Virus record (IMG/VR): IMGVR_UViG_3300021432_000012
Coordinates: 1-51,034 of that record
From: a virus
Direction: 5' to 3' (one strand)
Length of the DNA: 51,034 nucleotides
In this document: piece after piece, positions 3,185 to 8,228 of the stretch
How the letters are laid out: each line of letters begins with the position of its first letter
Position numbering within the stretch: position 1 is the first letter of the stretch
The notes under the pieces: generated by a model
Database searches by the model: none
What the model was told of the DNA's origin: nothing
What the model saw: the letters and a program-made list of their open reading frames with translations, nothing else
Position numbers and translations under genes: made by a program

Positions 3185-3211
3185 TCGATTCTCCAGTTAA
3201 GAGAGTTAAAG

Positions 3212-3263
3212 AATCGCGCCAGACGGTAACTAACCGTTTTTCGAATGCCTTCTAGGCGCGATT
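3212..3263. terminator. Inverted repeat between converging genes
   Basis: AATCGCGCC (3212-3220) pairs with GGCGCGATT (3255-3263); inside lies ACGGT-aacta-ACCGT followed by five T. The interval lies at the 3' end of the leftward gene at 3284-4156 and just upstream of the HNH remnant. It could act as a terminator, but the structure is not classical. Confidence 0.35.
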
Positions 3264-3283: not shown

Positions 3284-4156
3284 TCAACGAACGCTTGTGT
3301 TAGATGATACTGGATTGCCAGAAGCAGTCATAGTTCCCAAATTTACAATGCCGTTATGGATTATCTGGTTCTGATTAATCAGAGCCTGCAACCCTGATGC
3401 AATCGTATTCAGAACTTGAAATTGCTGTTGCTGCTGAGCTTGGGCTTGGTTCTGATTGACATTTTGCGTGATCGTCAATTCAGTCTCCCTGCTATGCCGC
3501 TGGCTATTACGATCACCCTTCAGTTCGATAATCTCATTCTGAGCAGTTGCCAGCATACGATTCAACGCAGCATCATTGTTAGCGATAATCAAAGCACGTG
3601 TCTTATCGCCATCAACTTGGATAGCTTGGGAAACTGCGTACTGCGCGCCGGCGATTTGCAAAGCCGTATCTTTGAACGCCAAGGCCGAAGCTGTTCCTGT
3701 ACGCTCAACAGCCGTTGCCACAGCCGCCGTATTCAATGCAACCTGAGTTGCCAAGTCGCCGCCCACCTTCTGGACTTGAACGCCCAAAGCCGCCGCATTC
3801 AACGCCGCCTGAGTATTTGCTTCGCCTTGGCCCTTGGCGATTTCAACACCTAGCGCTGCATTGCCTACGCCAACAGCTAGTTGCGTAGCTCCTGCGGTAC
3901 GTTCTACTGCGGCCTGAATCTCGCGCTGGCTCTCTGCATCGAAACGAGCCGTTACCAAGCGCTCTAAGCTAGCTACGCGCTCATTACTGTTCATGTTGAC
4001 GCCATCTGCTGTCCCGCGATTGCCAAAAAGACCGTTACCGCCTAATAGTGCGCCTCCAAGCACGCCACCAAGTAGGCCAGCGCCTAGGCCGCCTCCGATT
4101 GCTGCGCCAGTCCCAGCGCCAGGTGTAAAAATATTGTGTACAGGTGTTCCGTCCAT
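3284..4156 (-). CDS. Gly/Ala/Gln-rich phage protein with long helix
   Basis: 290 residues from the ATG at 4156, preceded by GGAGAAAATC; an upstream in-frame ATG lacks such a site. The N-terminus is glycine-rich and hydrophobic (GAAIGGGLGAGLLGG, then LLGGNGLFG), could enter a membrane, and is followed by N-E-R-V-A-S-L-E-R-L. The rest is long Ala/Gln-rich helix ending in a Q-Q-Q-Q-Q stretch. This composition resembles phage virion proteins or helical injection proteins. It is the only leftward full gene in the left early region. Function unknown. Confidence 0.7.
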   Translation of the reverse strand: MDGTPVHNIFTPGAGTGAAIGGGLGAGLLGGVLGGALLGGNGLFGNRGTADGVNMNSNERVASLERLVTARFDAESQREIQAAVERTAGATQLAVGVGNAALGVEIAKGQGEANTQAALNAAALGVQVQKVGGDLATQVALNTAAVATAVERTGTASALAFKDTALQIAGAQYAVSQAIQVDGDKTRALIIANNDAALNRMLATAQNEIIELKGDRNSQRHSRETELTITQNVNQNQAQAQQQQQFQVLNTIASGLQALINQNQIIHNGIVNLGTMTASGNPVSSNTSVR

Positions 4157-4293: not shown

Positions 4294-4506
4294 ATGCAAG
4301 AGCAAAAAAAAGACGGTCGCCCGTTAATTCACCCAGAACAGGAAGTCGCCCTAGCAAATTACACGGCTAGGATAACTTTCCGGCAGGCGCGTATCGCGAG
4401 AAAGATAGGTAACGGAAACTTGAGCGAGGGATTGAGAAAATGCATAGAGAAGGCGGCGATAGACTTGCAGTTCATGCAGGCATTGCCAGTCCAAAAAAAG
4501 AAATGA
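4294..4506 (+). CDS. Small basic phage protein, possible DNA binding
   Basis: 70 residues from the ATG at 4294, chosen because a GGGGCGG lies just upstream and the promoter at 4239-4268 would start RNA close to the other ATG at 4282. The segment G-R-P-L-I-H-P-E-Q-E ... L-S-E-G-L-R-K-C-I-E-K-A resembles small ribbon-helix-helix-type phage regulators (strand, then S-E-x-L-R-x-x-I). It overlaps the next gene by ATGA. Confidence 0.55.
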   Translation: MQEQKKDGRPLIHPEQEVALANYTARITFRQARIARKIGNGNLSEGLRKCIEKAAIDLQFMQALPVQKKK

Positions 4507-4658
4507 TCCGGGCGTATTTTTACGCTCGCGGTTTTCTACGCTCGGTGATTCTTGATACTAATGATTTTGGATGGGCTAAATTAGATTTAGCTGACTGGCT
4601 TTCTGAGCATAGAATGTCGCCAACTTCTGCTGTCATGTTTGAAATATTTGTTAAATAA
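4503..4658 (+). CDS. Small phage protein, unknown function
   Basis: 51 residues; the ATG overlaps the previous stop (ATGA). Aromatic and hydrophobic residues alternate, without a clear membrane segment. No family recognised. Confidence 0.5.
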   Translation: MIRAYFYARGFLRSVILDTNDFGWAKLDLADWLSEHRMSPTSAVMFEIFVK

Positions 4659-4673
4659 CAAAACTAAAATAGT

Positions 4674-4702
4674 TTGCAATTGCTCCTGAGAATTCCTATA
4701 CT
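4674..4702 (+). promoter_or_regulatory. Putative sigma-70 promoter
   Basis: TTGCAA at 4674-4679, 17-bp spacer, TATACT at 4697-4702. An imperfect inverted repeat (GAATTCCTAT ... ATAGGTAATTC) spans the -10 and could be an operator. It serves the three small genes 4727-5104. Confidence 0.6.
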
Positions 4703-4726
4703 ACATAGGTAATTCTAGGAGTGATT

Positions 4727-5104: not shown

Positions 5105-5139
5105 TTTAAGAAATATTTGCGAAAACAAACAAATACTCC

Positions 5140-5168
5140 TTGAAATTATTGCTCTAGTAAATTAATAT
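5140..5168 (+). promoter_or_regulatory. Strong sigma-70-like promoter
   Basis: TTGAAA at 5140-5145, 17-bp spacer, TAATAT at 5163-5168. Expected start near 5175, just before the first hairpin of the structured RNA. Confidence 0.7.
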
Positions 5169-5173
5169 TGTCT

Positions 5174-5346
5174 TGTCTGAGCAATCAGATTCGCTAACGG
5201 ATGGTGCCGAGCGATGCAAATACAGATGGAATGTGCCTCAAAGTTTTTTGGAGGGTAGTGTAGAACGTTCCCGGGACCATCTGCCCATGCAAGGAATGTT
5301 CTGCGCCACCAAGCGCCTACCCTCCAAAGGTCTTTGAGGTTTTTTT
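5174..5346 (+). ncRNA. Candidate structured phage small RNA (about 170 nt)
   Basis: A promoter (5140-5168), a compact fold and an intrinsic terminator define a discrete RNA with no ORF. Helices seen by hand: TCTGA-gcaa-TCAGA at 5176-5189 with a GNRA loop; TCGCT/AGCGA (5191-5195 with 5210-5214) enclosing CGG/CCG; a 23-position stem 5236-5258 with 5317-5339 broken by a single U-U mismatch; AGAACGTTCC/GGAATGTTCT at 5262-5271 with 5293-5302; GCGC-caccaa-GCGC at 5303-5316. The last three form a three-way junction closed by the long stem, and seven T follow at 5340-5346. I do not recognise it as 6S, tmRNA, RNase P or SRP RNA. It could be a regulatory RNA or a decoy. Confidence 0.65.
5236..5346 (+). 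terminator. Intrinsic terminator closing the small RNA
   Basis: CCTCAAAG (5236-5243) pairs with CTTTGAGG (5332-5339), directly followed by seven T. The stem continues inward through GGAGGGTAG/CTACCCTCC. Confidence 0.8.
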
Positions 5347-5369
5347 ACGCCTAAATATTTTGAATTAAC

Positions 5370-5761
5370 TGTGCCATGACCAAATCAGCATGGCTTAAAT
5401 GGGAACGATAGGAATCTCGGCATGCAGTAAGTGAATACTGAGTATAGAGGGCACAACCGCCGAACGGCAGTATTCGAGAGTCAAGAATGACCAGTAGGAC
5501 AAGCGTGGGGTGTAGTGGTTAGAGCGTGCTGGTGGGCCGTGAGGCTTATAGTCTGACCAAATGACGGGCAATTAGCGTAGTTACTTGGATTGAAAAATAT
5601 TCAATTTAATTGTCCGGCAGCCAACCGAGGATAACTCTAAGAGTTTGACTGGGGGTGCTGTTGACTTTGGGATTCAATCCAAGAGAAAAAATAGATTCTA
5701 ATTAGTACCTAATAGGGGTCTGTTTATAGAAAAGCAATATTGGTAATTGAGAAATATTACC
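5370..5761 (+). other. Structured leader upstream of helicase gene
   Basis: No ORF is credible here. Visible pairings: GCCATG/CATGGC (5373-5378 with 5389-5394); TCTCG/CGAGA (5415-5419 with 5475-5479) enclosing GAATACTG/CAGTATTC (5433-5440 with 5468-5475), sharing one C; CTTGGATTGAA/TTCAATCCAAG (5584-5594 with 5673-5683), which competes with local ATTGAA/TTCAAT (5589-5594 with 5600-5605); and GGTAAT/ATTACC (5742-5747 with 5756-5761) next to the helicase ribosome site. A tRNA-D-arm-like string occurs near 5511-5526. It could be a structured RNA or a regulated 5' leader. Confidence 0.45.
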
Positions 5762-5779: not shown

Positions 5780-7312
5780 ATGCAAGAAAGCTTAGTAGCT
5801 GGTTTGGAAAGTGAAAAATCTTCTTCCAATATTGTGAATGAATTGGTTCTTCGTAATTATCAAGAAGATGCCATCATACTAATCAAGAATTCCTTGGCTA
5901 ATGGGAATAAAAGAATTGTCCTTCAAGCCGCTACCGGGTCAGGTAAGAGCGCGATTTGCGAAACAATGATCGTGGGTGCCTTGAAAAAAGGAAAGCGAGT
6001 CATGTTCCTGGTGAATCGCGTTCAACTAGCCGACCAAATGTCGACCCATTTGAGCCGCGCAAAGATTGAGCATGGGATTCTACAAGGGGCAAATACTCGT
6101 GGCACTTATCACGATTGTGTGATTGCCTCAATAGATACTATTCATAAGCGGGGATATCCTGAATGCGATCTTATTCTTTGCGATGAAGTGCACGGGGCCG
6201 CTGGGTCAGAAAAATATCACAAACTCATAGAGCATTACAAAGGAATTCCTATCATTGGAGTGACTGCCACATGCATGGCAAAGGGACTTGGTAAGCAATA
6301 TAAATTCGGTAAGTTATTTGAAGATATTGTTTGCCCAATTTCTATCCAAGAATTGATAGATCAAGGTTATCTGGTTGATGTTGATATTTACGCTCCGAGC
6401 GAGCCAGATTTAAAAAATGTAAAAATAGTAGCCGGTGACTATCACGAAAAGCAGCTTGCAGAGGCGGTCGATAAACCGACACTGATTGGGGATATAGTCG
6501 ATAACTGGATGCAAAATGCAAAAGGAAAGCAAACGATAGTCTTTGCCGTAGATATCGCACACAGTAAGCACATCGTAGAGCGTTTTAATGCCGCTGGAAT
6601 CAACGCGGAGCATATTGACTACATGATGACCTATGATGAGAAGAAAGAGATTGTAGGCAGGTTTAAAGCTTCGGAATTTACAATTTTATCGAATTGTGCA
6701 TTGCTCTCTGAGGGATTCGATGCGCCAGCTACTGAAGTCATGATTTTGGCGCGTCCGACAAAAAGTAAGATCAGATATTTGCAGATGGTAGGGCGTGTCC
6801 TGCGCCCGTTTGCTGGAAAGGATAAAGCGGTATTATTCGACCATTCCGGATCAACTGCTCAGCTAGGATTCCCGACCGATGATTTTCCGATTGTTCTTGA
6901 TGATGGGAAACCTAAAAAATCATCCGGATCGGATAAGAAAAAAGAGGAAAAGTTACCGGTTAAATGTACTAGTTGCAAATATCTCCGTAAGAACGGAGGT
7001 AAATGTCCGATATGTGGATTTGTGCCGCAAAAGAAAAATTCTGTCGTGACTGCGATAGGTAGTTTGACGAAAAAGGAAAAAACAAAAAAATCAATATACG
7101 AATCTATGAACAAGCAGCAGGTTTTTTCTGAACTACGATATATTGCTAATGAAAAAGGTTATTCTGATGGATGGGTAGCAAATCAATATAGAAGTTTTTT
7201 TTCTGTCTGGCCGCGTGGTCTTGAAAATACGATGTCGGAGCCTGGAATTCTCGTGCATAACAAAGTGAAATCTAATTTCATCAGATTCGCGAAGGGCAGA
7301 AAAAATGGCTGA
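5780..7312 (+). CDS. Superfamily 2 DNA helicase with zinc ribbon
   Basis: 510 residues. Walker A ATGSGKS at 51-57, Walker B D-E-V-H at 135-138, motif III-like V-T-A-T downstream, and a C-terminal helicase domain ending in the motif VI-like Q-M-V-G-R-V-L-R-P. A C-x2-C ... C-x2-C zinc ribbon follows (C-T-S-C ... C-P-I-C). This is the DEAD/DEVH type used by phages to open DNA at replication. AAGGA lies upstream of the ATG. It overlaps the primase gene by 8 bases, so the two are a replication unit. No polymerase gene is present, so host polymerase is likely recruited. Confidence 0.9.
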   Translation: MQESLVAGLESEKSSSNIVNELVLRNYQEDAIILIKNSLANGNKRIVLQAATGSGKSAICETMIVGALKKGKRVMFLVNRVQLADQMSTHLSRAKIEHGILQGANTRGTYHDCVIASIDTIHKRGYPECDLILCDEVHGAAGSEKYHKLIEHYKGIPIIGVTATCMAKGLGKQYKFGKLFEDIVCPISIQELIDQGYLVDVDIYAPSEPDLKNVKIVAGDYHEKQLAEAVDKPTLIGDIVDNWMQNAKGKQTIVFAVDIAHSKHIVERFNAAGINAEHIDYMMTYDEKKEIVGRFKASEFTILSNCALLSEGFDAPATEVMILARPTKSKIRYLQMVGRVLRPFAGKDKAVLFDHSGSTAQLGFPTDDFPIVLDDGKPKKSSGSDKKKEEKLPVKCTSCKYLRKNGGKCPICGFVPQKKNSVVTAIGSLTKKEKTKKSIYESMNKQQVFSELRYIANEKGYSDGWVANQYRSFFSVWPRGLENTMSEPGILVHNKVKSNFIRFAKGRKNG

Positions 7313-8228
7313 TAAAAATTATCCTACTATCGAAGCGGCTCTTGGGAAATGGCATGATATTTTAATTACCCTTGGCGTAGATCAGAAGTTTTTAACGGGA
7401 CGACATACGTCATGTCCTCTATGTGGTGGGATAGATCGGTTTAGGTTCGATAATAAAGATGGAAGTGGTTCATTTTATTGCTCTCAGTGCGGGCCTGGTT
7501 TTGGAATGCAATTTTTGATGCGCCTTTATGGGTGGAGATTTTCAAATGCCGCTAAGGAAGTTGATAAGATCGTCGGTAGAATGAAAATAGGTTCTTTCGC
7601 CTCACAAAAAACAGAGCAAGAAAAAATTGCGGCAATAAAAAAAGTTTTGAAAGAATGTCGAAGAGTAGTGCATGGTGATCCTGTATGGACATACCTTAAT
7701 CGAAGAACTGGAATACAGGAAATACCTTCAGACATCAGATATCATCCTCGTTTATATCATTCTGAAGGTGAGCGTCACCCCGCAATGGTTTCAATATTGC
7801 GCGATCAATACGGAAGAGGAAGCACTTTACATCGAACATACTTGACTTTTTCTGGAGAGAAGGCGAATGTTCAGATAGTGAAAAAATTTATGGCTGGACT
7901 CTGTTTAAATGGTTCGGCAGTTAGACTATCTCTCGTTTCTGATGAAATTGGGATAGCGGAAGGAATTGAAACCAGTATTGCAGCTTCATTGCAATTTAAT
8001 ATTCCGGTTTGGGCTGCAACAAATTCTGTTTTATTGGAGCGATGGGAAGTTCCAGAAGGCGTAAAAAGAATAGTCATATTTGGAGATAATGACAGAAATT
8101 TTACAGGCCAGTCTGCGTCATATAATCTAGCTAGAAGATTGACGTTAAAAGGATACGATGTCGAAGTAAAAGTTTATCCGGAAATGGACAAGGATTTTGC
8201 CGATGCATGTTTCGAGAGAGTTTCTTAG
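7305..8228 (+). CDS. DNA primase (zinc finger plus Toprim)
   Basis: 307 residues. Zinc-binding residues H34, C37, C40, C59 and C62 (H-T-S-C-P-L-C ... F-Y-C-S-Q-C), then a Toprim domain with A-E-G-I-E-T at 218-223 and F-G-D-N-D at 259-263, which supply the metal-binding acids. It resembles the N-terminal primase part of P4-alpha-type proteins, but the helicase is a separate gene upstream. It would make RNA primers for phage DNA synthesis. Confidence 0.9.
   Translation: MADKNYPTIEAALGKWHDILITLGVDQKFLTGRHTSCPLCGGIDRFRFDNKDGSGSFYCSQCGPGFGMQFLMRLYGWRFSNAAKEVDKIVGRMKIGSFASQKTEQEKIAAIKKVLKECRRVVHGDPVWTYLNRRTGIQEIPSDIRYHPRLYHSEGERHPAMVSILRDQYGRGSTLHRTYLTFSGEKANVQIVKKFMAGLCLNGSAVRLSLVSDEIGIAEGIETSIAASLQFNIPVWAATNSVLLERWEVPEGVKRIVIFGDNDRNFTGQSASYNLARRLTLKGYDVEVKVYPEMDKDFADACFERVS

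Follow-up and report, generated by a model that had tools for sequence, protein, structure and literature searches.

The CI RNA of satellite phage P4 is a small structured immunity RNA that lies in the leader of the phage replication operon. Phage lambda produces 6S RNA from its own promoter, pR′, as an untranslated transcript of roughly 200 nt ending at a strong terminator, tR′, before an operon. The pRNA of phage phi29, which is about 174 nt long, contains a three-way junction and a complementary loop pair that varies in sequence between phages. RNA-based phage immunity is also exerted by the c4 RNA of P1 and P7 (PMC12197685), and the kissing loops of GOLLD and ROOL, two non-coding RNAs associated with phages, covary (PMC12286853). 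In addition, extrachromosomal prophages of mycobacteriophages, which have no integrase, carry RNA-based origins beside parABS (Wetzel et al., 2020, PMC7157519).

The locus described here lies in the window, that is, the whole analyzed stretch of 51,034 nucleotides, a 51-kb virus contig (IMGVR_UViG_3300021432_000012) that carries genes for terminase, portal, ejection, and lysis. It encodes a structured element, RNA1, whose fold matched mutations have kept intact in a dozen or more related viruses. Literature searches returned no description of such an RNA.

Location and Predicted Structure of RNA1

RNA1 lies inside a 675-nt gap, flanked by a 35-codon ORF that ends at 5105 and a helicase gene that starts at 5780. 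The phage has an ordinary large terminase, from which RNA1 is 11 kb away; RNA1 instead adjoins the helicase and primase genes. The features of the region are as follows.

5140–5168, + strand: predicted sigma70-type promoter, TTGAAA (−35, 5140–5145), 17-nt spacer, TAATAT (−10, 5163–5168)
5174–5346, + strand: RNA1, predicted self-terminated small RNA of ~173 nt
5175–5190, + strand: 5′-most hairpin with a GCAA (GNRA) loop, GTCTGA-GCAA-TCAGAT (structure prediction; alignment A13)
5191–5214, + strand: conserved 5′ hairpin, loop AUGGUG at 5201–5206
5202–5206, + strand: UGGUG in the 5′ loop, kissing partner of CACCA at 5307–5311
5223–5229, + strand: linker CAGAUGG, complement of CCAUCUG at 5277–5283 in the loop of junction hairpin 1
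5236–5258, + strand: 5′ arm of the main stem, 23 positions
5262–5302, + strand: junction hairpin 1, arms 5262–5271/5293–5302, loop holding CCAUCUG (5277–5283)
5303–5316, + strand: junction hairpin 2, GCGC-CACCAA-GCGC, arms 5303–5306/5313–5316
5317–5339, + strand: 3′ arm of the main stem, 23 positions
5340–5346, + strand: T7 tract completing a predicted intrinsic terminator
5350–5690, + strand: RNA2, a second conserved non-coding block and separate element between RNA1 and the helicase gene
5780–7312, + strand: SF2-type DNA helicase gene (phrog_16, 5.5e-92), the first gene past RNA1 and RNA2
7305–8228, + strand: DNA primase gene (phrog_510, 2.6e-65)

The original prediction had described most of this architecture as a transcript without an ORF, and the long ORFs nearest to RNA1 are indeed the two that bound the gap. 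Its promoter is found as TTGAAA-17-TAATAT, its seven-T tract follows the 3′ arm of the stem, and its second hairpin is the conserved 5′ element of RNA1. The 23-position stem with one mismatch holds up, program and inspection both giving one T.T mismatch plus two G.U pairs, and the two inner helices are the arms of the junction hairpins, which form a three-way junction with it. The GNRA hairpin is likewise present, but it is confined to the window phage and absent in the relatives, and is thus not a conserved part of the fold. That the fold seemed too complete for chance agrees with a minimum free energy of −69.3 kcal/mol for 5174–5346, whereas dinucleotide shuffles average −48.0 ± 4.2 (z = −5.1) and not one of the 200 is as stable. 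Promoter-like sites in the region number 6 vs. 2.8 in shuffles, which is weak evidence on its own. A standard terminator scan makes no call at RNA1 because the arms of the stem are separated by a 58-nt loop. Promoter and terminator activity have the status of predictions.

The claim that RNA1 matches no known family also stands. The only Rfam match at gathering score in the window is int-alpA at 3194–3262 on the − strand, with none at RNA1, and a permissive search of the RNA1 stretch gave only chance-level miRNA and tmRNA noise; the relatives of RNA1 likewise have no Rfam family match beyond chance level. Readings of the region as a tRNA, group I intron, retron, or pRNA were rejected, as ARAGORN calls no tRNA in the RNA1/RNA2 region and Rfam gives no match.

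Several other elements were observed in the neighborhood. The int-alpA RNA (RF02996) is present in the window (3194–3262, −) and in the related contig L356 (2743–2807, −), in both cases adjoining an Ala/Gln-rich protein gene, though no integrase was found. At 4683–4721 of the window, a near-perfect hairpin, CTCCTGAGAATTCCTAT...ATAGGTAATTCTAGGAG, overlaps a promoter −10 and contains the AGGAG ribosome site of the next ORF (65 aa), with a z of about −4 on both strands. Equivalents of RNA2 (window 5350–5690) occur at 4336–4756 in L356 and between RNA1 and the helicase gene in L357, L358, and L411. Those of the window and L356 form one family (about 75% identity over a 162-nt core), while those of L357, L358, and L411 form another with shared blocks including GGGGCCATAACCCAGCCCTAGCGG and CGGGTGAGGTTTGGACG; the RNA2 blocks have no Rfam match. 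A tRNA D-arm-like stretch within RNA2, GGTGTAGTGGTTAGAGC (window 5511–5527), is kept in L356 as GGTCTAGTGATTAGAGC.

Relatives of RNA1

Relatives were found through the helicase and through structure. An alignment of the close helicase subfamily (A4) led to L356, with 68% helicase identity, and to L357, L358, and L411, with 55–56%. All four have, upstream of the helicase gene, a long stem that ends in a T-tract and is capped by a three-way junction. Scanning for structure in the 2.2 kb ahead of each helicase relative, and later in all loci, brought in L421, L400 (two copies), L064, L406, L409, L410, L414/L415, L427/L428, and L237. L434 and L437 came in as independent members through a degenerate pattern based on junction hairpin 2, and model R2, built without L411, recovers L411 at 33 bits (E = 0.0025). 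The relatives are mostly metagenomic contigs, and members were partly picked by eye from the structure scan. Family members span ~115–175 nt, and the smaller type is assigned to the family by shape, position, and loop pairing, not by sequence similarity; the larger and smaller types may have a convergent origin.

A T-tract is present in all listed relatives and a promoter-like site precedes RNA1 in most, though this site is weak at L411, L237, and the second copy in L400 (L400b). RNA1 lies upstream of helicase-primase genes in the window, L356–L358, L411, and the A-type members. RNA1 of L434 and L437 is followed not by a helicase gene but by a small ORF of unknown function; genes preceding RNA1 in L434 were judged by eye to resemble ninB/ninG. 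In L400b, L064, and L237, a possible start codon lies about 20 nt past the end of the predicted terminator, whereas other members have 250–450 nt (RNA2) between the terminator and the first gene. The two copies in L400 (1190–1309 and 3885–4020) precede different operons and carry different kissing loops.

Queries of 50,697 phage records at the nucleotide level found no relatives, whether made with the window region or with L356, L411, and L421, and neither did a search of viral contigs with single helicase and primase proteins; relatives of the portal protein lack the RNA1 region. An exact 14-nt pattern hit about 100 contigs, nearly all by chance as judged by blastn, although L064 among them carries an RNA1 member. 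Under strict filters, model R2 matched none of 768 proteobacterial genomes. In addition, 13 records, which may be incomplete, gave no match to tyrosine or serine integrases (PF00589/PF00239) or to ParA-type PF13614. Thus, integrated prophages are not an obvious home of RNA1.

Some candidates were set aside. The seeming long-stem terminators of L209, L304, L318, L360, and others appear to fall in coding sequence, a superficially similar long stem in L196 lacks a T-tract and was left out of the member count, and the terminator of L211 is repeat-based, being a 25-bp terminator of AGGACAGG repeats (3667–3758) directly after the helicase gene. Separately, phages PS-1 (L109, 2379–2991) and YA3 (L112, 2263–2733) have non-coding gaps of 470–610 nt with Cro-type genes on one side and helicase-side genes on the other. 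They contain a 53-nt element, 91% identical in the two phages, and a GC hairpin immediately ahead of the helicase gene.

Compensatory Change and the Coding Strand

A MAFFT alignment of all members together was not structure-true, and subgroups were therefore aligned instead. Alignment A13 comprises the window, L356, L421, L434, and L437, and was scored on the nested structure together with the kissing pairs. In this alignment, 94.0% of cells are paired, 18 of 37 pairs are changed on both sides, and the covariation score of 0.470 is never reached by shuffles. When partners were slid by 1–3 columns as a control, 33–48% of cells were paired, 1–4 pairs were changed on both sides, and the score fell to 0.06–0.08. 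All five pairs of the 5′ hairpin (helix 1; 5191–5214) show double changes; the main stem and junction hairpin 2 were scored as helices 3 and 4. The kissing helix between the 5′ loop and junction hairpin 2 (helix 2) is 100% paired, with the window carrying a compensatory C-G to U-A change in UGGUG/CACCA. The smaller members L406, L409, L410, L414, and L427 (alignment A6) give a similar picture, with 95.3% of cells paired, 11 of 40 pairs doubly changed, and a score of 0.430; all eight of their kissing pairs are 100% paired and five are doubly changed. The stems have therefore been doubly changed rather than broken, which is the outcome of the check for compensating changes that the original prediction had proposed.

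The strand can be read from the same alignments and models. There are 13 G.U cells vs. 2 A.C cells, and the covariance model scores 83–107 bits on the + strand vs. 22–34 on the − strand; a first covariance model of 21 pairs was weak, yet strand-specific. Because both the excess of G.U over A.C and the model scores favor +, the functional product is the + strand RNA. As judged from sequence comparison, RNA1 is almost certainly a family of real structured RNAs.

Complementarity and Rapid Turnover of the Kissing Loops

The most informative feature of RNA1, overlooked by the original prediction, is the kissing complementarity of its loops. In nearly every small member, the 5′ hairpin loop has a Watson-Crick complement of 6–10 nt in the junction domain. 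The letters of the two arms differ from phage to phage while the pairing is retained, as follows.

L357: TAGCAG/CTGCTA
L358: TGAACGG/CCGTTCA
L400, two copies: TTGGCGG/CCGCCAA and TTGGCCG/CGGCCAA
L406: GTGGAACC/GGTTCCAC
L409: GTCAGACC/GGTCTGAC
L410: ATAGGAAC/GTTCCTAT
L414: GTGCAAAC/GTTTGCAC
L427: GTGGTAAC/GTTACCAC

The larger members, among them that of the window, show two contacts, one between the 5′ loop and junction hairpin 2 and one between the linker and junction hairpin 1. The former is UGGUG/CACCA in the window, GGC/GCC in L356, and UGGC/GCCA in the other aligned members, with one compensatory change among them. The latter is CAGATGG/CCATCTG in the window, AACAGTG/CACTGTT in L411, GATGGG/CCCATC in L437, and 12 nt long in L421. 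When 5′ regions were swapped among members in 20,000 permutation draws and matched bases were counted, the 110 matched bases observed (mean of draws 74, maximum 88) were reached by none. This result, 0 of 20,000, is unchanged without L064 and the first copy in L400 (L400a), whose complementarity had raised their rank.

The loops also change faster than their surroundings. In two pairs of metagenomic phages, RNA1 diverges by 16–28% while the promoter and downstream non-coding DNA are 99–100% identical. Between L406 and L409, identity is 92/92 in the promoter, 284/284 in RNA2, and 93/111 in RNA1 (Fisher's test, 9e-13), and between L410 and L414 it is 91/92, 279/283, and 78/109, respectively (3e-17). 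The kissing arms differ at 3+3 positions in the first pair and 4+4 in the second, and every difference is matched by its partner. In L427 and L428 the situation is reversed, as RNA1 and the promoter are identical and RNA2 is different, which points to exchange of modules. Exchange or diversification therefore affects RNA1 as one unit, whose hypervariability could come from cassette exchange as well as from selection.

Since the loops of L406 and L409 have changed while RNA2 is identical at 284 of 284 positions, the partner of the 5′ loop is RNA1 itself. This argues against a P4 CI-like target in RNA2, and a duplex test agrees, specific pairing between RNA1 and RNA2 being not significant (p about 0.16). 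Complements of the 5′ hairpin do occur just past the T-tract in L357 (13 nt; 4565–4577 and 4682–4694) and in L437 (9 nt), and pairing of the 5′ region with the downstream 110 nt exceeds the permutation in 99.1% of draws (p about 0.009). These may serve as an alternative pairing in readthrough transcripts, and they leave limited room for a target downstream. A scan for trans targets within the phage genome was uninformative, with 9 scattered complementary 11-mers vs. 4 expected from mononucleotide shuffles. Kissing probably occurs in cis rather than in trans.

Proposed Role and Alternative Explanations

The reading preferred here, at a probability of roughly 0.4, is that RNA1 is a phage control RNA, made from its own promoter and self-terminated, at the entrance of an early operon, with the kissing pair as its tag. 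RNA1 would form a long rod capped by the three-way junction, and its 5′ hairpin loop (in larger members, the linker as well) would pair with the loops of the capping junction, either in cis or between copies. RNA polymerase starting at the RNA1 promoter would make RNA1 and stop at its end, and RNA1 would act as a gate to the early operon, which is the replication operon in most members. The kissing pair would set the stability or recognition of the structure, and each phage's element would respond solely to its own RNA through the phage-specific tag.

The kissing pair changes fast and always as a matched pair, which fits such a tag; a specificity role for the loops is put forward tentatively. 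With either a possible start codon ~20 nt past the T-tract or RNA2 in between, RNA1 is placed where gating of an operon is possible, and the odds that it controls the downstream operon are put at about even. The 250–450 nt of RNA2 before the first gene in most members mean that a simple attenuator cannot explain the whole region, and PHROG scans identified no antiterminator factor. It is doubtful that the two loops are a lock and key under diversifying selection, forming, in cis or between molecules, a self-kissing identity tag that controls replication or excludes relatives.

An alternative is kissing in trans between RNA1 molecules of one phage, the 5′ loop of one molecule pairing with the junction loop of another, leading to exclusion, incompatibility, or copy control among co-resident phages, with a logic comparable to that of plasmid copy-control RNAs. 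The fast diversification of the loops with matched partners between flanks that are 99–100% identical fits this proposal, as does the lack of integrase and ParA matches in the records, which suits non-integrating phages whose compatibility could be set by replication control. Complementarity alone fits cis and trans alike. However, there is no antisense arrangement, a specific pairing of RNA1 with its own RNA2 is not supported (p about 0.16), and the records, which are possibly incomplete, hold no sign of lysogeny. Such self-recognition is therefore regarded as unlikely, although it is the best placed of the alternatives.

Next in order, and also unlikely, is a plain cis-acting leader, in which a promoter-terminator gate resembling lambda pR′-6S RNA-tR′ is opened by an antitermination factor and the loops vary merely by cassette exchange. 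Nearly every member has the promoter-like site and T-tract that this requires, a possible start codon follows about 20 nt past the T-tract in L400b, L064, and L237, and the two copies in L400 stand ahead of two operons. A plain leader leaves the conserved kissing pair and its rapid matched change unexplained, and a 23-bp stem capped by a three-way junction exceeds what a terminator needs.

A structural role, in which RNA1 forms oligomers through its kissing loops like phi29 pRNA or GOLLD and ROOL, or is bound by proteins through its shape, is improbable. The conserved shape with free sequence and the complementary loop pair, as in pRNA, are what it predicts, and intermolecular kissing loops do build nanocages of phage ncRNAs (PMC12286853). 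RNA1 is nevertheless located in the replication region, away from packaging genes, is matched by no Rfam model of pRNA, GOLLD, or ROOL, and is a single self-contained three-way junction rather than an ornate RNA.

Slightly weaker again is an antisense immunity RNA of the P4 CI/P1 c4 type, whose loops would target other sites in the leader and so make transcription of the replication operon end early. The position of RNA1 ahead of helicase-primase and the complements after the T-tract in L357 and L437, together with the excess over 99.1% of permutation draws, can be cited for it. It is already weakened by the change of the L406/L409 loops against an unchanged RNA2, and neither the RNA1-RNA2 duplex test nor Rfam lends it a significant match. 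Finally, it is very improbable that the inverted repeat works at the DNA level, whether as a cruciform, an origin, or a protein site, or folds by chance alone, since its position in the presumptive replication-origin region before helicase-primase is outweighed by the strand-specific promoter, T-tract, and G.U pairs and by compensatory changes that include a non-nested kissing helix.

If RNA1 is indeed a control RNA with a kissing tag, it would represent an undescribed RNA family in a part of the phage genome that usually goes unannotated. It would also bear an unusual signature, a fold kept by matched changes while its pairing loops outpace all surroundings, and such turnover is expected for specificity determinants. 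RNA-based control of phage replication or co-infection would then be open to loop-swap tests. The second, larger conserved RNA beside RNA1 is also flagged.

Comparison with Known Systems

Like P4 CI and P1 c4, RNA1 is a small structured phage RNA, and short loop complementarity decides the specificity of those RNAs; as with P4 CI, it lies in the untranslated leader region of a replication operon. In contrast to both, its complementary partners sit inside RNA1, it has its own predicted terminator, and RNA2 does not change together with its loops. Neither RNA was matched by Rfam in the window or the relatives in gathering and permissive searches, although P4 CI may have no model. Like lambda 6S, RNA1 has a promoter in front, is untranslated, and ends at an intrinsic terminator ahead of an operon, an arrangement predicted from sequence in the case of RNA1. 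However, RNA1 precedes replication rather than late genes, has a conserved kissing three-way junction, and is accompanied by no Q-like gene identified in PHROG scans.

The likeness to phi29 pRNA lies in size, the three-way junction, and the conserved complementary loop pair, whether this pair links molecules (trans) or closes one (cis). RNA1 differs in its place beside replication genes, in a phage with an ordinary large terminase, and the Rfam covariance model of pRNA does not match it. GOLLD and ROOL are much larger and lie near tRNA islands, unlike RNA1, which is not matched by their Rfam models. The mycobacteriophage origins resemble RNA1 in that integrase-less phages carry a non-coding RNA in the replication region, with incompatibility as a selective force, a likeness at the level of description; the hosts differ and no parABS is found here (no PF13614 in 13 records).

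RNA1 thus belongs with none of P4 CI/c4, lambda 6S, pRNA, GOLLD/ROOL, or the mycobacteriophage origins. It is therefore filed here as a new family of phage small RNAs, and is regarded as a variation on RNA control elements already known, short of a proven new principle.
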